DNA of 64,000 bases from Bacteroidota bacterium (GTDB lineage Bacteria; Bacteroidota; JABWAT01). Each line of letters starts with the position of its first letter. The stretch's first letter is position 1. A program made the position numbers and the translations under genes. The stretch spans positions 1 through 64,000 of the forward strand of contig JABWAT010000003.1 in NCBI GenBank assembly GCA_013360915.1, given 5' to 3'. This document shows, piece by piece, positions 369 through 32,073 of the stretch. The notes below the pieces were generated by a model, which worked only from the letters and a program-made list of their open reading frames with translations, had not been told where the DNA came from and ran no database searches.

Positions 369-3323
369 TCATTCCACGTCACTGAAACTTCTAACTCCAA
401 TCCTTGTTGTCCCATTAGTTTCTGGTATATGTATTGGACTTGGAACTTCAGTCGAGTTGAACTCTTGTTTCTGTTTCGAGCAGATTTTTCTAAAGTCGCA
501 TTCCTCACATTTACCATTACTTGGTCTCATAGGAAATTCTCCGTCAAGAATTCGATTAACAGCCCACTCTATATTTTGAATAGCAGATTCAATAGCTTCA
601 TCTGTAATCGGAACATTTACTCTATTTGGTACCTCTTCCGTATTTGGTGCTTTTAGTAAATGAACCGAACCTGTTTTCGCATTCTCTCCTAAAACTATGT
701 CTGCTGCATAAGCATAAAGCTGAACTTGCAATGAGAGATTTATCCAGAAAAAGGGATTTAACTGTCCCTCAGGAAAATCCATTGACTTGAAATCTATTAC
801 TCTTGCTTCTAAAATATTTCCATCATTATCCTCTCGTAATAGTAAATCGATTGAACCTGTAATTAATGCTTTATCAGCTTTTAACTCAAAACGCTGCTCT
901 AATGATCGGCTTTGCACAAAATCTTCTGGATAACCTTCTGCATAATTACCTACTAAAAGTTTTGAGGCATTTCTGGCTCTTTCATAAGGTCCTTCTCTTT
1001 CAGGATCTCTTGATGGAAACACATGTTTTAAATGAAAAACATCCTCAGCAATTTCTTCAGCTTCTTCTCGTGTCGGTGCAGTATTTGAAAAAAGTTGATG
1101 AGTCCTATTAATAGCAGTATGAGTAGTTAATCCATAACCAAATAACTCAGGTACAGCAGGACTGTAGCCGTAAATTTTACGAAATTTATACTTCATCGGA
1201 CACTCTAAATAGTCCTTAATTTCTGTAAAACTTGTAGGCATTGACTCTTCGTCTATACGAGGGCGTTGTTCTACTCTCTCTATATTATCGGGTAAATTGT
1301 TTAAGTCAGTAACTATTGCAGGGTTATTAAGTCCTTGGATTCTCAGCTTATACGGACTAGGTCTTTTTTCGGTGGTTAGACCTGGTTGAATTTTACTGCC
1401 AGTTATATATAAAAATCTTTCTGCTCTAGTCAATGCGGTGTAAAATAATCTTGCTTCACCTGAATTATTGCTCTGATACAAGCCTCTGTTCAAGGCATTT
1501 TGAATTAGGTTAATCGGTAACCAGCCTCGATAACCTCGGTTGTCTCCTGGGAATCTTCTATTAACAACATCAATAATAAATACCACTGGGAATTCAAGCC
1601 CTTTCATTTTATGGACTGTCGAAATTGTAACCGCATCAGGTCTCGACATAAGCTCTACTTGGGTTGTATCATATCCAGATTCGGCTACATTTTCGAGAAA
1701 ATTTAACACACTTTGGTATCTATGGCCAGTATCAATACTTACAAACACCTTTTCAACATCCAAAATAATTCCACTGAACACACCCAAATCACGCATTACT
1801 TGTTCTTGATTCTGAAACTGTGTAGTTGAAACTCTAAATGCTTCTAATAATTCATGAACTAATAATTGAGGATAGACCTTTCTTCTAGCTCCGCCAATTG
1901 GTCTATGAATTTGGTTATTCCAATCAGCTAAAATTTCTAAAAATCGATTTAAATCAGCATTTGGGAAGACGGGTAATATATTCGAATTGAAAAAATTTAT
2001 TGCTTCTCTTCGTGGATATCCGGGAGACCTTAAAAGCCCCATTGAATCTCTAAGTGTTCTTGCATGAAGTCTTTCAAAAATTGACCCTTCTGCTTCGATT
2101 AGGTAATTAATATCAGCATCTGTAAGCGCATTAGTGTATTCTCGATGATATGGTGCACCACCATTTCGAGTACCACCTTGCACTGAACGCATCAATATTG
2201 CAATGTCAGATTTAGAAAGACCTCTTTCTGACCCGTCAGTTTCTATGTATTTAGTTCCAAGCAATTGATTTATTCGGTTAGCAATCCACTCAGCTTCATC
2301 TTGCTTAGTGTCAAACCAAAGGTTTCCGAAGTGCTGAATATTCCCATCGGAGTTTGAAACTGGTGCTTTATCAATTCTTGCAGTACTTAGTTCAAGCTGA
2401 ATAAATCTGTCTGATGTGGAGACTATAGTACTTGTGCTTCTAAAGTTTGTAGATAGGGTATGGGTAGAGCAATTTGGGTATCTCTGGTCAAAATCAATTA
2501 TGTTTCGAACATCTGCACCTCTCCAACCATAAATGGATTGATCATCGTCACCTACTACAAATAAAGAATTGAGGCGGCTGTATAATCCCCTGATTAAACG
2601 TTCTTGGGAAATATTAACATCTTGATACTCATCAACCATTAGATGCATGGCATTTTCCAGTGCTGCATTTATTTCTGGATTATTATTTTCTAGTGCTTCA
2701 ACAACCAATCGAATCATTAAAGAGAAGTCAATGTATTGGTCAGAGTTTAATCTATTACCTATATTTTTAAGGCAAGAACCCAATGAGACATCTTCTAATT
2801 CAATTTCATCAAGAGATAACATTTCATCATTAGCCATCTTCCAAGCATTCGAGACTTCAGCAATGGTCTGGAACATTCTAGCATTTCTAGTATCTGCTAA
2901 AATGTTCAATCCTAATTCATAATATCTTGACAGCAAAAACAACTTCAATCGGTTCTCATCAAGTACTTCATATTGCCGATATTTCGCATTCATGGAGCCT
3001 AAAAGATTTTGGCAAAAAGCATGTATTGTTCCTATGTACATTGCTCCAACTAAAGCCACAGGTAGTCCAGCTTTTTCAAGGGCAGATGCAACTCGTCTTT
3101 TTATAGATTCAGCGGCTTTTTCTGTAAAAGTAAACGCAATTACGCTCTCTGGCTTTGCACCTTCATGAATTAGTCTGGCGATTCTGAAGGACAGAGTCCT
3201 TGATTTTCCTGATCCAGCACAAGCCAAACATAAAATTTCATTTGTGTCATCAATAACAGCATTGTATTGGTCATCAGTTAATGATAAATCAATAGCGGAA
3301 TAAGTGTCTCTGAAAAGTGGCAT
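369..3323 (-). CDS. UvrD/AddA-like helicase with C-terminal PD-(D/E)XK iron-sulfur nuclease
   Basis: This is a superfamily 1A helicase-nuclease of 984 residues. Helicase motifs run in order: Q motif near 15-23, Walker A AGSGKS 36-41, DEYQD 231-235, GDDDQSIYGWRGA 258-270, VHKMKGLEF 570-578 and YTALTRAERFLYIT 628-641. The last 290 residues form a RecB/Cas4-type nuclease with GSID (D826), IDFK (D844, K846) and QLYAY near 868. Four cysteines, C708 and C939/C942/C948, are placed as in the iron-sulfur clusters of AddB and Cas4. It should unwind and cut DNA. Its ATG directly follows the methyltransferase stop (TAAATG), so the two are translationally coupled. No AddB partner is nearby, unlike housekeeping AddAB. 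Inference: it is the restriction effector or partner of the adjacent methylase, within an integron cassette. A DNA repair role is the alternative. Confidence 0.85.
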   Translation of the reverse strand: MPLFRDTYSAIDLSLTDDQYNAVIDDTNEILCLACAGSGKSRTLSFRIARLIHEGAKPESVIAFTFTEKAAESIKRRVASALEKAGLPVALVGAMYIGTIHAFCQNLLGSMNAKYRQYEVLDENRLKLFLLSRYYELGLNILADTRNARMFQTIAEVSNAWKMANDEMLSLDEIELEDVSLGSCLKNIGNRLNSDQYIDFSLMIRLVVEALENNNPEINAALENAMHLMVDEYQDVNISQERLIRGLYSRLNSLFVVGDDDQSIYGWRGADVRNIIDFDQRYPNCSTHTLSTNFRSTSTIVSTSDRFIQLELSTARIDKAPVSNSDGNIQHFGNLWFDTKQDEAEWIANRINQLLGTKYIETDGSERGLSKSDIAILMRSVQGGTRNGGAPYHREYTNALTDADINYLIEAEGSIFERLHARTLRDSMGLLRSPGYPRREAINFFNSNILPVFPNADLNRFLEILADWNNQIHRPIGGARRKVYPQLLVHELLEAFRVSTTQFQNQEQVMRDLGVFSGIILDVEKVFVSIDTGHRYQSVLNFLENVAESGYDTTQVELMSRPDAVTISTVHKMKGLEFPVVFIIDVVNRRFPGDNRGYRGWLPINLIQNALNRGLYQSNNSGEARLFYTALTRAERFLYITGSKIQPGLTTEKRPSPYKLRIQGLNNPAIVTDLNNLPDNIERVEQRPRIDEESMPTSFTEIKDYLECPMKYKFRKIYGYSPAVPELFGYGLTTHTAINRTHQLFSNTAPTREEAEEIAEDVFHLKHVFPSRDPEREGPYERARNASKLLVGNYAEGYPEDFVQSRSLEQRFELKADKALITGSIDLLLREDNDGNILEARVIDFKSMDFPEGQLNPFFWINLSLQVQLYAYAADIVLGENAKTGSVHLLKAPNTEEVPNRVNVPITDEAIESAIQNIEWAVNRILDGEFPMRPSNGKCEECDFRKICSKQKQEFNSTEVPSPIHIPETNGTTRIGVRSFSDVE

Positions 3324-4361
3324 TTAAAAATTCTTTTGTTGAAGGTGAGTCAGAATGTGTGATTTGATATTCTCAGCTTGGATTTTACTGAACTCAGGTG
3401 GTAATGCATTCCCAATCATCAATGCAATTTTTGTCCTCGGAGCATCAATTGGAAACTTATATGTCTTTGGGAATGATTGAAGCATGGAAGCTTCTCTGGC
3501 TGAAATACATCTATCTTGCTCTGGATGAAGAAAGCGACCTTTGGAAGGGTTTAAACAACCACCCGTGATTGTTGTCGAAAAATCATCCCATCTCAACCGA
3601 CCATATACGTCATTAAAACCTACATTTTCTTTTTGATGACATTTTAATTGCCGGTCTTTACCTAAATCTTTCCTACTCCCACCATTTTTGGGAATATCTT
3701 TAATCAAATTCAATATTTCATCTGAGTGATTAGGAAAAATCTGATGTAATGGGTCTTTTGAGTTCTCAGGTTTTGGGAGTTTACCTATAACTTGCCTAAC
3801 AGTTTTTTTCTTTTTTGTTGGTTCTGCAATTTTTAACGGTGCTAATCTAGAACCAACTAATACCAATCTTTTTCTGCTTTGAGGCACACCGTAGTCTTTA
3901 ATGTTAACTATTTTCCAATCTGGTTTATAGTATCCTGCTTTTTCTAATTCTTTGAGTGCGGATTTAAATGATTTGTCAAGTGCTAAACCGGGCACATTTT
4001 CCATCATGAAAGTGTAAGGTTTTAATTCTTTCACAAATCGTACAAACTCATTAATTAGCTGATTTCTTTCGTCTTCAACAGGTTCTGGCTTATTAAGCCT
4101 TCGTATTGAACTGAATCCCTGACAAGGTGGGCAACCAGCAAGTAAATGAATCGTTTTGTTGCCAAGTTCTTTCTTAACATTCTTAGTTGAAATGTTTCTA
4201 ATATCGTCAGTAATGACTTTGGTCTTTTTATGATTCAGTTTATAAGCCTTTGATGCAAGCTCATCAATTTCAAAAGCAAGCTGTGTCTGGAAACCAGCCT
4301 TGTGAAGTCCTTCGGTCAGTCCTCCAACTCCACTAAATAAATCTATTGATATCAATTTCAT
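3324..4361 (-). CDS. DNA (cytosine-5-)-methyltransferase
   Basis: This is a C5-methyltransferase of 345 residues that transfers a methyl group from S-adenosylmethionine to cytosine in DNA. The family motifs are complete and in order: I, DLFSGVGG at 7-14; IV, GCPPCQGFS with catalytic C80; VI, ENV at 121-123; VIII, QSRKR at 161-165; IX, REASMLQSFP; and X, GNALPP near the C-terminus. The target recognition region between VIII and IX is of ordinary length, so one short target site is likely, but which one cannot be read. It opens cassette C, about 32 bases after the crossover point, and is joined without a gap to the helicase-nuclease gene. That pairing suggests self-protection of host DNA in a restriction-like system rather than an orphan regulatory methylase. 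Confidence 0.93.
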   Translation of the reverse strand: MKLISIDLFSGVGGLTEGLHKAGFQTQLAFEIDELASKAYKLNHKKTKVITDDIRNISTKNVKKELGNKTIHLLAGCPPCQGFSSIRRLNKPEPVEDERNQLINEFVRFVKELKPYTFMMENVPGLALDKSFKSALKELEKAGYYKPDWKIVNIKDYGVPQSRKRLVLVGSRLAPLKIAEPTKKKKTVRQVIGKLPKPENSKDPLHQIFPNHSDEILNLIKDIPKNGGSRKDLGKDRQLKCHQKENVGFNDVYGRLRWDDFSTTITGGCLNPSKGRFLHPEQDRCISAREASMLQSFPKTYKFPIDAPRTKIALMIGNALPPEFSKIQAENIKSHILTHLQQKNF

Positions 4362-4387
4362 ATGTCGAATATCGGTTTTTCTAATAT

Positions 4388-4522
4388 GGCTTACGTTTTA
4401 CGTATTGGCGATGGTGGGGCATTTGGAAAACGTCAGCCCAACACTTGCACAAATACCCAATTGAAATACAAATGTTGAATGTGCAACTGTCAGCCCCACT
4501 ATTGCCAATACGATGTTAGCAC
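4388..4522 (-). repeat. attC site between cassettes B and C
   Basis: This 135-base imperfect palindrome has a left arm (plus strand) CGTATTGGCGATGGTGGGGC at 4401-4420 and a right arm GCCCCACTATTGCCAATACG at 4493-4512. The two arms match at all but two positions. A second, inner pair TTGCACA/TGTGCAA lies in the loop. On the minus strand it starts with R'' GTGCTAAC (4515-4522) and ends with AAAACG|TAAGCC. The R' core reads GTAAGCC where GTTRRRY is expected, so one T is missing. GTGCTAAC pairs perfectly with the first bases of cassette B. Confidence 0.85.
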
Positions 4523-4531
4523 TTGTTTTTA

Positions 4532-4990
4532 TCATTTTGTTTCTGGATACCACCAGCCTTCGTGTTTACGTTTATATTCTTTCCCTCGGTCGTCGATAAT
4601 TACAATCTCACAGACAAAAGGACTTTCCAAATAGTCTGCATTTCCTAAATGTGGTCTTGTTTGTTTTAAATCAAATTCTTTTGTCATTGTCGCTGAACTC
4701 ACAAAGTCCATTGTCGAGCCGCTATTTTCAACTAATGTTGGAAACCATTTATTCCAATGCTCTATAGATTGCTTGATTTGGTTAGTTAAAAGTTCAGTTG
4801 GTTCGGCTATGTTCTTTAAAATGTCAACTGTCAATTTACAGCAATTAGTCTTGCGAGCCTGTTTTAATAAGTGTCCCATAAAATAGTCTTCATTTATGTA
4901 GTTCATTAAACTAATAAATGAATGTCCGAAGTTGTGAGAAACACTTTTTAAAGGTTTATGACTTGTCATTTCGTGATTTTTTATGGCCAA
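4532..4990 (-). CDS. Hypothetical protein, second gene of cassette B
   Basis: The protein has 152 residues and matches no family I recognise. It has no signal peptide or membrane segment. It begins with a polar stretch holding a second possible start (MTSHK, residue 8), then a helical, hydrophobic middle and an acidic-basic C-terminus ending in GWWYPETK. The first ATG overlaps the stop of the upstream 79-residue gene (ATGGCCATAA), so the two are probably co-translated. Both sit in one integron cassette beside defence genes. A toxin-antitoxin or anti-phage role is possible but rests on context only. Confidence 0.7.
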   Translation of the reverse strand: MAIKNHEMTSHKPLKSVSHNFGHSFISLMNYINEDYFMGHLLKQARKTNCCKLTVDILKNIAEPTELLTNQIKQSIEHWNKWFPTLVENSGSTMDFVSSATMTKEFDLKQTRPHLGNADYLESPFVCEIVIIDDRGKEYKRKHEGWWYPETK

Positions 4991-5220
4991 ATAAATTCTT
5001 TCGCTTTTGGACTTTCTGGGTCAAACCATTCATCAGCAATTTCTTGAAAAATTGGTTGTCCTTTTTTGTCGGTTCTTGTTTGAATTAAATCCCCGACAGG
5101 TGCACCGTGTAAATATCTCAGTCGTCCAGTTGAGTCGAACTTAATCTTTCCGTCATTAAGCAACGCATCAAATTTTGGCCAATTCTTGATATTGTCTTTC
5201 GTTATTCTAATTCTGTCCAT
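4981..5220 (-). CDS. Hypothetical small protein, first gene of cassette B
   Basis: This charged, soluble protein of 79 residues has no recognised domain. Visible features are a stretch DGKIKFDSTGRLRYLHGAPVG and an acidic, proline-containing tail. The start lies about 33 bases after the cassette crossover (TTAGCAC), the spacing seen for the other cassettes. There is no strong ribosome-binding site, which is normal for cassette genes. It overlaps the following 152-residue gene by 10 bases. A small first gene overlapping a larger second one is a common toxin-antitoxin layout, but nothing in the sequence proves that here. Confidence 0.7.
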   Translation of the reverse strand: MDRIRITKDNIKNWPKFDALLNDGKIKFDSTGRLRYLHGAPVGDLIQTRTDKKGQPIFQEIADEWFDPESPKAKEFIWP

Positions 5221-5246
5221 TGTTTATTGGTGTCGCTCTAAAATTG

Positions 5247-5381
5247 GTGCTAACGTTTTGCAGCTACCCGAAGGGCGGGACTATTACCACAAAACTTGAT
5301 TTGAAAAACTAATGTTTGATTAACCACAAAACTGTCTTTGGAACACGAAACCCCGCCTTTTGGGTAGGTGCTGTTATGCCT
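5247..5381 (-). repeat. attC site between cassettes A and B
   Basis: This 135-base imperfect palindrome has plus-strand arms CAGCTACCCGAAGGGCGGG (5261-5279) and CCCGCCTTTTGGGTAGGTGCTG (about 5352-5373, broken by two unpaired bases). Such extrahelical bases are normal for attC sites. On the minus strand it begins with R'' AGGCATAAC and ends with AAAACG|TTAGCAC. The R'' pairs over 9 bases with GTTATGCCT, the first bases of cassette A. Confidence 0.88.
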
Positions 5382-5388
5382 AGTTATT

Positions 5389-5730
5389 TTATAGTTCATT
5401 GTACTTTTTGTTCGACCCTTTGCTTTTGTCTACTAGGTATTTTAAATCATTCTTATTCACTTTATTTTTTACAGCACTTTCAATGTCTATTCCAAATTCG
5501 TCACTGATATATGTGAGAAAAATAAAAATGTCGGCTATTTCGTCAGCGATTTTTTCTTTTGGAATTAGATTTATTTCTTGTTCATTTTTCCATAAAAACA
5601 ATTCATTAAGTTCAGCAACTTCAATACCTAGTCCTAACAATAGGTCTTTTATTTTATGAAACTGTTTCCAATCTCTTTTTTGCCTAAATTCTATAATCAA
5701 GGCTTTTAACTCATTAATATTATTACTCAT
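5389..5730 (-). CDS. MazG-like nucleotide pyrophosphohydrolase
   Basis: This all-alpha NTP pyrophosphohydrolase has 113 residues from the chosen start. The metal-binding pattern EVAELNE followed by DEIADIFIF (ExxE...ExxD type) is present. The tail, KSKGSNKKYNEL, resembles that of the short dCTPase/RS21-C6 branch. Members hydrolyse (d)NTPs to the monophosphate and pyrophosphate. The start is set at the ATG of ATGAGTAA, where it overlaps the stop of the EVE-HNH gene by 8 bases. An ATG 12 bases further upstream is also possible. As the second gene of cassette A, it may clear modified nucleotides or deplete nucleotides during phage infection. That is inference from context. Confidence 0.85.
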   Translation of the reverse strand: MSNNINELKALIIEFRQKRDWKQFHKIKDLLLGLGIEVAELNELFLWKNEQEINLIPKEKIADEIADIFIFLTYISDEFGIDIESAVKNKVNKNDLKYLVDKSKGSNKKYNEL

Positions 5731-6619
5731 TTCTAAATTCAAATTTTTTAGACTTTAGCGCTTCTTTTGAAGGGTGTAGATTAATATTTTCTGGTAAACG
5801 AATTGTTGTCCCATTAAGTTTTTGATAGTATTCAGATTTTACTTCTGGGCTAATGTGAATTTTAAATGACTCATCAATATACAACAATCCATTGTCGTAT
5901 AATTTATGTAAATCTACTCTAAGTAATAAACCATTTTTAACGTGATTTGAATTTTCGTCAAAATATGGTTGAATATGAGCCGCTTCAAGTAATTCAGGTG
6001 TTGTTTCATTTGTAATGCAGCATTTGTTTGAATATGCAGTTGTTATAATTGCTCTGAAATTTCCTTGACCCTTTCGTTCAGTTACAAGTCTTGATTTTTT
6101 TAGTTTTTCTAGTGTGGTCGGTAAAAGTTCAAATTCTTTTACCATTGATTCTGTAGCAATTTCAAGTGGATCATTTTCATTGTAGTACTTTATTTTTACA
6201 ATGAATCTTGAAAAATCAATCTCATAGTTGTCTAAATCCAAAAATTTGTCATCATCATAATAGACAGCATTTGTTAATACTATACAACCAATTTCGGAAT
6301 CTGTTACACTTCTTTCGTCTGAACTGTTGGAGGCTTTATACTTATCTAATCGGTCAATTAAATCCTGTTTACTTGTACAACCATTTTTGAAGCCGTATTT
6401 ATTCCAAGCGTCATTAACAGACATATTTTTATACTCAACAAATTGACCATAACCACCAATTTTTCTTATTGGTGATTTCAACATAAAGTACAATTTGTCG
6501 CCACTAGCAAGGCGAGAAACATTCCATGGTGTTGGTGTCCAAAAATTAATTTCCGAATTCAATCCTTCGGTTCGGAGGAACTTAAACCATTCTATATCAG
6601 TCGGTGAAATTGCAAACAT
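5723..6619 (-). CDS. EVE-like domain HNH endonuclease
   Basis: The protein has 298 residues. Residues 1 to about 130 look like an EVE/PUA-like fold (WFKF...FWTPTPWNVSRLASGDKLYFMLKSP...GGYGQF), the type of module that reads modified bases in DNA. The C-terminal half is an HNH_2-type nuclease: Y/C..C at 196-201, AAHI with H215, N229-G-LLLR, and DLHKLYD with H238, so the beta-beta-alpha metal catalytic set is intact. Known EVE-HNH enzymes restrict phage DNA carrying modified cytosines (type IV-like restriction). It opens cassette A, 26 bases after the crossover, and is followed by an overlapping MazG-like gene. The substrate is inferred. The assignment of the N-terminal fold rests on pattern recognition. 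Confidence 0.82.
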   Translation of the reverse strand: MFAISPTDIEWFKFLRTEGLNSEINFWTPTPWNVSRLASGDKLYFMLKSPIRKIGGYGQFVEYKNMSVNDAWNKYGFKNGCTSKQDLIDRLDKYKASNSSDERSVTDSEIGCIVLTNAVYYDDDKFLDLDNYEIDFSRFIVKIKYYNENDPLEIATESMVKEFELLPTTLEKLKKSRLVTERKGQGNFRAIITTAYSNKCCITNETTPELLEAAHIQPYFDENSNHVKNGLLLRVDLHKLYDNGLLYIDESFKIHISPEVKSEYYQKLNGTTIRLPENINLHPSKEALKSKKFEFRNE

Positions 6620-6636: not shown

Positions 6637-6712
6637 AGGCATAACTCGTTTATAGCTCTCTAAAACATTCCCCAATCCGACTAATTTAGATGGCTATGGG
6701 AATGTTTAAGCC
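6637..6712 (-). repeat. Short attC (or attI-adjacent) site upstream of cassette A
   Basis: This 76-base site has a perfect 10-base inverted repeat, AAACATTCCC at 6663-6672 and GGGAATGTTT at 6698-6707. On the minus strand it begins GGCTTAAAC and ends CGAG|TTATGCC, supplying the crossover in front of cassette A. It is shorter than the other three sites (about 135 bases). No gene lies upstream of it before host sequence, so it may be the attC of a lost cassette. Confidence 0.65.
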
Positions 6713-30047: not shown

Positions 30048-30213
30048 TTTTGCCATTCCCCTTGTGCTTAAATGGAAGCGTTTCTACTAACAAAAGTCGT
30101 GATATCTGGCTGTTTTGTCAACTCTTTTTTGTAAAATTCGTGTTAAGAAGTGGAAAGGCTTTTATTGAAGCCCATTGCAAGGACAGATCGGAAGGGGGTT
30201 TTTGGGGGTCCGG

Positions 30214-30669
30214 TTAACTGTTGATGATGTGCCGGTTAACCGAATGGGCAACCAGAATACAATAATCCTGAATAACATGAATGCCTTCCCGGGTGAGGGT
30301 TTCGGCCACCGCATCATTCCGGATTCCCTGCTGAAACCACACCACCGGTGGCCGTGGTGTCATGGACAGAAGATCGGGAACATGGCCCGGCAGGTGTGCC
30401 GGTGCACGAAAGATATCCACGATATCGACCGGATGAGGAATGTCGGCAAGGGTCGCATACACCGGTCTTCCCTGAATGCGGGTACCGGCCACCCGCGGAT
30501 TCACGCCAACCACCTGGTAGCCCTTATCCATCAGAAACCGGAAAATCTCATTTGAAACTTCATCCGGGTCGGGTTTCACTCCCAGAACGGCGATGGTTCT
30601 GGCTGTTTTCAGTATGGTTCCTTCGTTGGTCAGATCTATCATCATGGAATCCGGACTTGGTATCATCAT
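30214..30669 (-). CDS. CoA-binding domain protein (YccU-like)
   Basis: This Rossmann-type CoA_binding_2 protein has 151 residues (143 if the later ATG is used). Typical features are TIAVLGVKPDPDEVSNEIFRFLMDKGYQVVGVNP, HPVDIVDIFR, VWFQQGI and the terminal QDYCILVAHSV. The family binds CoA or acyl-CoA; its physiological role is unclear. Two start codons 24 bases apart both lack a clear ribosome-binding site. Confidence 0.85.
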   Translation of the reverse strand: MMIPSPDSMMIDLTNEGTILKTARTIAVLGVKPDPDEVSNEIFRFLMDKGYQVVGVNPRVAGTRIQGRPVYATLADIPHPVDIVDIFRAPAHLPGHVPDLLSMTPRPPVVWFQQGIRNDAVAETLTREGIHVIQDYCILVAHSVNRHIINS

Positions 30670-30696
30670 AAAAAGGTTTCGCGTCTGAAAAGCGTG

Positions 30697-32073
30697 TCAG
30701 ACCAGATGATACAACGAAGTAAGACGGATGGGAATTCCCTCGAGCACTTTCAGCTCCATGCCGGTCCGGTCGAGCGGATCGAGACGATGGACAAATTCCA
30801 CTTCCGGGATGACGTGGCGGGCCTGCCGGGCAAAATCGAGCAGGCCCGTGAAAGAGACGCCCTCTTCCTTCAGTCTCATCAGAACCTGATAGTCCGATGG
30901 AGTCAGCGTTGGCAGAATAACCGAAAGACGATCCACCAGACCCGTAAGGTCATCCAGAAAATTCCGGTCATGAAGAAGAAATCCGTGCCCGTTGGTAACC
31001 ACGCGGACGGGCAAACCCTGTTCTCTGAAAAGACGTGCCAGGGTCATCAGGTCGTGAAGCCGGATAAAGGGTTCACCAGGTCCGGCAAATACCACTTCGG
31101 ACAGGCCGGTCAGATCGGGAAGGGCCGCCAGTACCTCACTGACCGATGGTTCGTGATCCAGCCGGGTTTCATACCCATGAAGAATGGTGTCGGAGGACCG
31201 GTCACAGAAAATGCAGTTAGCTGTGCAGCGATTGGTCAGGTTGATATACAGGCGTTTCCCGATGGTAAAGGCAATCGCGGGTTTGGGCCCCGTTCCGATA
31301 CCGAACAGGGAATGAACCGAGGTTCCCACGTTCCGGTTAATGTCACCCGGGGTTAAATCAAGAACCGAGGCCATGTGTTCAATGGTTGCGGTAATCATGG
31401 CTGGTTCGTTCCGCTTTCCCCGGTAGGGAACCGGGGCCAGAAAAGGTGCATCGGTTTCTGTCAGAAGCCGGTTGATGGGAATCAGCGGCAACAGGTGGCG
31501 CAGGGTCGAGTTTTTATACGTGACATTTCCGGCAAAGCTGATGTAAAAACCCGGATTCGCCAGCGCTTCCCTCAGAACGGCCTCATTGCCGCTGAAGCAA
31601 TGGAAAATGCCCCTCAGTCCCGAACCTCGGTAGTCGCGGATGATATCAAGAAGGTCTTCGTCAGATTGCCGGTTGTGAAGAATAACCGGTTTGTTCAGTT
31701 CCAGAGCCAGCTGAATCTGCTGATGCAGCAGACGCTTCTGCTTTTCTTTATAGGTGATGTCCCAGTAATAATCCAGACCGATTTCACCAACGGCAACCAT
31801 GGAAGGGTGATCCAGCAGGTGCCTCAGGTTTTCTGAAAGCGTTTCCTCGTCGATTTCGGCCACATCGGTCGGATGGATTCCCGCAGCGCCATACACGCCG
31901 GCATGTTCCCCGACCAGATCACGCACCTTTAAACTGGTCTCCAGATTGGTTCCCGGAACGATTATGGTTTCCACTCCGGCCAGCCGCGCACGTTCAAGAA
32001 GATCGGGAACCGGTTCGGCAAAATCTTCCCAGTACAGGTGGGCATGGGTGTCGGTGGCAGGCCAGGTGCTCAT
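30697..32073 (-). CDS. TatD-family hydrolase fused to a radical SAM domain
   Basis: The protein has 458 residues. Residues 1 to about 258 are a TatD-type metal-dependent hydrolase: TDTHAHL, GIHPTDV, GEIGLDYYWD, KPVILHNRQSDED, GIFHCFSG and LTETDAPFLAP. From about 268 a radical SAM domain follows, with the cluster motif CTANCIFC and the SAM-binding AGPGEPF. Stand-alone radical SAM proteins linked to TatD are a known family, and a fusion strengthens the functional tie. TatD proteins are 3'-5' nucleases or D-aminoacyl-tRNA-related hydrolases; the combined reaction is unknown. The gene diverges from carB across the DnaA-box region. Confidence 0.88.
   Translation of the reverse strand: MSTWPATDTHAHLYWEDFAEPVPDLLERARLAGVETIIVPGTNLETSLKVRDLVGEHAGVYGAAGIHPTDVAEIDEETLSENLRHLLDHPSMVAVGEIGLDYYWDITYKEKQKRLLHQQIQLALELNKPVILHNRQSDEDLLDIIRDYRGSGLRGIFHCFSGNEAVLREALANPGFYISFAGNVTYKNSTLRHLLPLIPINRLLTETDAPFLAPVPYRGKRNEPAMITATIEHMASVLDLTPGDINRNVGTSVHSLFGIGTGPKPAIAFTIGKRLYINLTNRCTANCIFCDRSSDTILHGYETRLDHEPSVSEVLAALPDLTGLSEVVFAGPGEPFIRLHDLMTLARLFREQGLPVRVVTNGHGFLLHDRNFLDDLTGLVDRLSVILPTLTPSDYQVLMRLKEEGVSFTGLLDFARQARHVIPEVEFVHRLDPLDRTGMELKVLEGIPIRLTSLYHLV

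Follow-up and report, generated by a model that had tools for sequence, protein, structure and literature searches.

The locus considered here raises the question of whether two overlapping genes, one of them for a putative nuclease with a modification-sensing type of domain and the other for a MazG-like nucleotide pyrophosphohydrolase, work together or are merely neighbors in a piece of mobile DNA. The genes are located within a 64,000-nucleotide stretch from a Bacteroidota bacterium (contig JABWAT010000003.1), which is referred to below as the window. Based upon the evidence presented here, we consider it reasonably probable that the two genes act against phages as a single unit, coupled in translation, and that this unit is a form of type IV (modification-dependent) restriction.

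The gene pair and its cassette context

The features of this locus, all of which are on the minus strand, are as follows.

5723..6619 (-): gene 1, for a predicted PUA-superfamily (EVE/ASCH-like)-HNH endonuclease, 298 aa, ATG start
Gene 1 product: putative sensor, approximately residues 1-147; flexible linker, 150-180; HNH domain, 180-298
5389..5730 (-): gene 2, for a predicted DCTPP1-like all-alpha NTP pyrophosphohydrolase (MazG-like), 113 aa from ATG
5723..5730 (-): 8 bases, ATGAGTAA, shared by the stop of gene 1 and the start of gene 2
6639..6645 (-): GTTATGC core just upstream of gene 1, read from the sequence and proposed as the 5' cassette boundary
5244..5384 (-): attC-like site closing the two-gene cassette, stem CTACCC...GGGTAG, z = -2.9, cores GCATAAC / GTTAGCA
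4380..4525 (-): second attC-like site, downstream of the next cassette, z = -4.2, 20-bp stem, 90% complementary

Both open reading frames, together with the 8-base overlap that had been described for them earlier, were found at these positions, and for gene 2 an alternative TTG start at 5742 is possible. The overlap ATGAGTAA is kept as ATGAATAA, likewise of 8 bases, in the Balneolaceae MAG MES10, and the arrangement suggests translational coupling of the two genes.

The proposal of the initial annotation that the pair resides in an integron cassette is supported by the attC-like hairpins at 5244-5384 and 4380-4525, which were folded as single-stranded DNA, and by the GTTATGC core. Upstream of gene 1, neither a full attC nor an attI site was recognised, and the core is followed by chromosomal sequence. 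The two window sites were also not called by a strict attC script, because both of their cores are imperfect. The cassette has a GC content of 30% in comparison to 52% for the chromosome, and the array as a whole is AT-rich. The matching cassette in MES10 (G091) starts GTTGTGGCTAATTATAAAAAAC and is preceded by an attC-like repeat with a 7/7 core match (L027 4111-4206). As no integron integrase was found beside the window array, the pair is best described as a cassette-like unit whose array has no integrase of its own. The integron integrase (IntI) of the same genome is located on another contig, C23, with different attC repeats, and due to this difference the possibility that the window array is a part of that integron was rejected. 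The C23 locus (30051-30989 onward; L037) consists of a complete integron integrase (414 bits) and about seven cassettes, two of which encode related small membrane proteins; its attC-like repeats are unlike those of the window and the array runs off the contig end.

Other parts of the window array were also noted. The interval between the two attC-like sites holds a pair of short ORFs, of 79 and 152 aa, which overlap each other (4532-5220, minus strand) and together make up a two-gene cassette; no significant Pfam or NCBIfam matches were obtained for them. A cytosine-5 DNA methyltransferase cassette (3324-4361, minus strand) belongs to the same array as the gene pair, and right after it there is a gene for a UvrD-like helicase with a C-terminal PD-(D/E)XK nuclease (369-3323, minus strand). 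The methyltransferase and helicase-nuclease (369-4361) look like another two-gene defence unit.

The predicted products of the two genes

The C terminus of the gene 1 product is, as judged from its sequence, a beta-beta-alpha-Me HNH nuclease with intact catalytic residues. The HNH_2 domain (PF13391) was identified well above the cut-off (9e-13, residues 200-249), and this domain can be aligned by sequence with that of VcaM4I (6yex), with H215, N229, H238 and D242 of gene 1 corresponding to H224, N241, D250 and D254, which have been probed by mutation in VcaM4I (PMC7897488). In an alignment of 20 homologues of gene 1, H215, N229 and H238 are invariant and D242 is conserved in most. For the first 150 residues, no match to any Pfam model, including that for EVE, was detected. 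An AlphaFold2 model of gene 1, built with 16 homologues, has a mean pLDDT of 76, with values mostly of 80-88 in the sensor and below 50 for linker residues 160-181. In Foldseek searches with this model against the PDB, VcaM4I was the top match (1.1e-6), followed by an ASCH protein of Zymomonas (TMt up to 0.66), AF2351 and TagI, with weaker matches to EVE and YTH entries. When the whole chain is compared with VcaM4I, the TM-score is low (0.31), which is likely due to a different placement of the two domains in the model. The Foldseek matches to EVE, ASCH and YTH structures indicate that the sensor is a PUA-superfamily domain. An EVE type is likely, but the sensor may instead be of the ASCH type; the best single-domain Foldseek matches of the sensor are to ASCH proteins, and its profile match to an EVE-like set is weak (hhalign probability 21%, E 0.001). 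In a profile comparison with another EVE-HNH family, the HNH part alone was aligned. Thus, of the earlier identification of gene 1 as EVE-HNH, the PUA-superfamily fold of the N-terminal region, for which a structure prediction had been proposed as the check, and the resemblance to VcaM4I were upheld, whereas the sensor may be of either the EVE or the ASCH type.

The homologues of gene 1 also share a conserved W27-x-P29, W72 and an aromatic residue at position 120. By inference from the sequences, these would recall the W22/P24, W82 and Y130 pocket of VcaM4I, a 5mC/5hmC-dependent nuclease which restricts the 5hmC phage T4gt (PMC7897488). A phosphorothioate-dependent SBD-HNH identity for gene 1 was considered and rejected, as the NCBIfam model for these proteins matches the HNH part only (41 bits vs. 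a cut-off of 180 bits) and ScoMcrA was matched in Foldseek with an E value of only 0.3.

For the gene 2 product, the MazG-like family (PF12643) was assigned well above the cut-off (6.4e-14), in agreement with the earlier MazG-like description, which can now be refined to specifically DCTPP1-like based upon phmmer and Foldseek. In a phmmer comparison, it matched mouse dCTP-pyrophosphatase-1 (DCTPP1; 6sqw) over its whole length (2.6e-17), and its structural model (pLDDT 89) matched 4qgp and 6sqw at TM 0.75-0.8. The Foldseek matches ranked 1-20 were all to AF1178 or DCTPP1/RS21-C6, including the mouse enzyme with 5-methyl-dCMP. By sequence and model, then, gene 2 is closest to DCTPP1 and not to MazG proper, iMazG or dUTPase. 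An assignment to the iMazG type was rejected, since 2q5z was matched only at E = 0.045, in comparison to 1.7e-5 for AF1178, and gene 2 therefore belongs to a different MazG subfamily. In an alignment of 21 relatives, residues E37, E40, E64, D67, W21, W47, K90 and N94 are invariant. From the DCTPP1 structures, we take E37, E40, E64 and D67 to be the acidic metal site and W21 and W47 to be aromatic base-binding residues. At the position that presumably corresponds to H38 of the mouse enzyme, gene 2 has an Ile and its base preference may therefore differ. No model in PADLOC-DB 2.0.0 matched gene 2. The mammalian DCTPP1/RS21-C6 enzymes hydrolyse dCTP as well as 5-methyl and 5-formyl dCTP (PMC7162842; PMC10742078), and it is this property of the family that makes a coupling with gene 1 chemically coherent. 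By analogy, the gene 2 product probably destroys dCTP or modified dCTP.

Recurrence of the pair and of related pairings

In a survey of 395 genomes from this phylum, relatives of gene 1 were found in 20 genomes and those of gene 2 in 26, and in one other genome, that of the Balneolaceae MAG MES10 (VEMX01000069), the two genes are present side by side. The MES10 pair, which shows 72% (gene 1) and 64% (gene 2) identity and has the identical order, is the third cassette-like unit when counted from a tyrosine recombinase; attC-like repeats precede it and a partial repeat follows. This recombinase scored over the cut-off of NF040815 (239 vs. 220) and under that of TIGR02249 (212 vs. 265). Between the window and MES10, dN is about 0.18 and dS about 2.2 for gene 1, and for gene 2 dN is about 0.29 and dS is saturated. 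As synonymous sites are saturated or nearly so at dN values of 0.18 and 0.29, both genes are under purifying selection. A more distant pair was observed in IMGVR_UViG_3300031825_000061, a GC-rich viral or mobile contig, where a member of the gene 1 family is followed by MazG with a 4-base overlap (31%/36% identity); since the pair recurs in overlapping form at these identities, the explanation that the genes are chance neighbors was rejected. For the other full-length gene 1 relatives that were checked (28-36% identity), a MazG neighbor was absent within the 1.5-3 kb available. Several of these adjoin restriction genes, for example a type ISP enzyme, and type I and McrC-like genes (judged by eye) are present beside some gene 1 relatives. 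As most EVE-HNH relatives of gene 1 are without a MazG neighbor, the nuclease does not require MazG. A narrow peptide-pattern scan of genome contigs with a single window protein gave no matches, and with a two-row alignment it retrieved only the Balneolaceae MAG; similar scans of viral contigs gave no matches for the window pair. With a broader MazG profile, 74 loci were identified in viral contigs.

The neighbors of the DCTPP1-like MazG relatives are strikingly non-random. In genomes, the gene immediately downstream of most of these relatives is for a Schlafen-group-3 helicase (PF09848), which may or may not carry a GIY-YIG domain. Further relatives are found beside several kinds of nucleases. 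In L053, the neighbor is a different EVE-HNH protein, the N-terminus of which matches PRK00809 (3.5e-4), which we take to be the UPF0310/EVE family, and also PH1033, weakly. A third EVE-like HNH family adjoins MazG in L060, L061 and a Streptomyces plasmid (L084, 35% identical to L060), and in a Vibrio prophage, within the interval from integrase to repressor, an EVE-like HNH gene overlaps that for MazG. Additional neighbors are an EVE-like/PD-(D/E)XK-like protein (L044; domains judged by eye), an MrcB_N-HNH protein (L077) and an McrB-like AAA protein (L102). Of the 74 viral loci, 39 have an EVE-like HNH gene of the L060, L084 or L086 type beside MazG, with a gap of 15-43 bp in tblastn alignments, and seven match the MrcB_N-HNH reference, one of them directly adjacent and the others further away. 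The window type of gene 1 is beside MazG in one of the 74. Thus, the association of the two genes that had been predicted for their homologues is seen in same-family pairs and in parallel pairings of other families, and the description of the pairing as unusual was not sustained, as it recurs in genomes, plasmids and prophages.

The strength of this association was examined by clustering MazG proteins at 70% identity and counting as partners those modification-sensing-type nucleases and Schlafen-group-3 helicases that are present within 250 bp on the same strand. A listed partner was present for 22 of the 28 genome clusters, where the references were picked partly from the same neighborhoods (about six of the 22 positive clusters contain a reference itself) and the p-values are therefore descriptive, and for 13 of the 34 viral clusters, a set nearly independent of the choice of references. 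In 30 control loci of housekeeping MazG (PF03819), no listed partner was found. In a tree of MazG sequences with limited overall support, the window and Balneolaceae pairs branched together (98/91), and the modification-sensing-type partners were scattered over several places, which indicates that the pairing probably arose more than once.

Some of these neighborhoods are of interest in their own right. The genome from which the window derives carries a DCTPP1-like MazG gene directly upstream of a Schlafen-group-3 helicase gene (C15:53362-53697; L065), and the same arrangement, often with an N-terminal GIY-YIG domain, is found in L041-L059, the sources of which are numerous genomes of this phylum together with one archaeal plasmid and one phage record. 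This combination is a candidate defence pair of its own. In the Vibrio phage 10N.286.55.A5_PE003 (L086, 1885-6636), the integrase-to-repressor region is a prophage defence hotspot, with two HNH genes, MazG, a HEPN-like gene and a restriction-like gene. In L145-L165, L169-L177 and other prophage-like viral contigs, MazG is followed 15-43 bp on by an EVE-like HNH protein, and that of L145 belongs to phrog_14240.

Proposed function and comparison with known systems

In the mechanism that we propose, gene 1 would recognise a base modification, the most likely target being a C5-modified cytosine that is flipped into its PUA-type pocket, and its HNH domain would then cut the modified phage DNA. Gene 2 would convert dCTP, preferentially in C5-modified form (5-methyl-, 5-hydroxymethyl-), into the monophosphate. 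This would both deny the precursor to a hypermodifying phage and prevent modified dCTP, whether made by the phage or recovered by salvage of its restricted DNA, from entering the host chromosome and there giving rise to sites that gene 1 could attack. Of these two roles, we slightly favor the self-protecting one, and sanitation of the pool by gene 2 appears at least as likely as its depletion. The substrate specificities, the functional coupling and the anti-phage activity of the pair are those that we infer. Since a methyltransferase cassette (3324-4361) is present in the array, a nuclease acting on any 5mC would attack the host unless it is protected by context or 5hmC specificity, and by this argument some 5mC would be left uncut by gene 1. 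Also weighing against the proposal are the observations that the MazG relatives in genomes pair most often with Schlafen-group-3 helicases and that most EVE-HNH relatives of gene 1 are without MazG.

Of the other explanations, the one put forward in the initial annotation is that gene 2 destroys bulk dCTP or several dNTPs upon infection, independently of modification, with gene 1 acting as a separate layer. DCTPP1 indeed also accepts plain dCTP (PMC7162842), MazG domains are predicted, unvalidated components of defence (PMC13092281), and pairing with Schlafen-group-3 helicases, which are not known to be modified-base sensors, fits with such a role. However, there is no sign of regulation that would spare the host from a constitutive dCTPase, DCTPP1-type enzymes are housekeepers in mammals, and the repeated occurrence of modification-sensing-type nuclease partners is left unexplained, so that generic depletion appears fairly unlikely.

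The base that is read could also be other than a C5-modified cytosine (N4-methylcytosine, 6-methyladenine, phosphorothioate or a uracil-type base), with gene 2 hydrolysing the matching or some other nucleotide. The position of the sensor between EVE, ASCH and YTH in Foldseek leaves room for this, as do the match of a phosphorothioate-dependent restriction model to the HNH part, far below cut-off, and the presence of dUTPases among MazG-fold enzymes. We regard it as rather improbable, in view of the fact that the best relatives, VcaM4I and DCTPP1, both indicate C5-modified cytosine and the putative pocket residues of gene 1 (W27-x-P29, W72, aromatic 120) would resemble those of VcaM4I. Quite improbable, in our opinion, is that MazG is a general cleaner of the nucleotide pool which hitch-hikes with mobile genes and is functionally untied to the nuclease. 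In its favor, numerous genes with no relation to one another travel in integron cassettes and prophages, iMazG (2q5z), a weak structural match to gene 2, is a known integron-cassette MazG, and a listed partner is missing in six of the 28 genome clusters and 21 of the 34 viral clusters; but a mere passenger would not account for the overlapping order conserved at 31%/36% identity, nor for parallel pairings with several nuclease families when the control MazG loci gave 0/30.

With the coupled restriction module as the preferred reading, the fact that the pairing recurs in prophages and in bacteria unrelated to one another suggests a defence module of two genes that has attracted little notice. 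More tentatively, and with somewhat less than even confidence, type IV nucleases may have enlisted, more than once, a DCTPP1-like enzyme dedicated to clearing modified dCTP from the pool. The base under attack by the nuclease would then be available neither for phage DNA nor for incorporation into that of the host, and protection of self would be achieved via the nucleotide pool and not via DNA methylation. Type IV enzymes have so far been treated as single proteins or McrBC-type complexes, and a recurrent coupled pyrophosphohydrolase would add to this kind of restriction a nucleotide-pool layer and would account for the tolerance of cells to nucleases acting on modified bases; it would also assign a role in bacteria to the DCTPP1 family, most knowledge of which comes from mammals.

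The EVE-HNH nucleases and the DCTPP1-like MazG proteins are each already known. Their pairing was not found described in the literature searched, and it may be covered by the earlier predictions of Burroughs et al. 2015, a work said to predict nucleotide-acting defence domains. MazG is not mentioned in a survey of EVE proteins (PMC7641849), and DefensePredictor lists it among predicted, unvalidated defence domains, citing an earlier bioinformatic study (PMC13092281).

Among known systems, VcaM4I and the other EVE-HNH endonucleases (6yex; PMC7897488; PMC7641849) share with gene 1 the order of PUA-type sensor, linker and HNH domain, and VcaM4I is also of similar length, has aligned HNH catalytic residues and is the best fold match. 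In contrast, the N-terminal sequences are without detectable likeness, the sensor of gene 1 may be EVE or ASCH, and gene 1 is paired with, and overlaps, a gene for MazG. The DCTPP1/RS21-C6/AF1178 dCTP pyrophosphatases resemble gene 2 in full-length sequence, fold and invariant metal-site and Trp residues, whereas gene 2, the activity of which is predicted, is bacterial, encoded with a nuclease and has Ile at the mouse H38 position. A precedent for MazG proteins in integron cassettes is provided by iMazG of Vibrio DAT722 (2q5z), likewise a MazG-fold enzyme but of another subfamily, and for which we know of no nuclease partner. The MazG and SLFN-g3 (DUF2075) helicase neighborhoods, a description of which was not found in the literature, contain the same DCTPP1-like MazG, often in overlapping genes, but their partner is a helicase or GIY-YIG protein and MazG is upstream and not downstream. 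Lastly, MutT homologues beside the SauUSI type IV enzymes of Streptococcus, mentioned only in the legend of Fig. 9 of one study (PMC7641849), are similar to the window pair in that the gene for a modified-DNA nuclease adjoins that of a nucleotide pyrophosphohydrolase, whereas both the hydrolase fold (Nudix) and the nuclease are unrelated to those encoded here.
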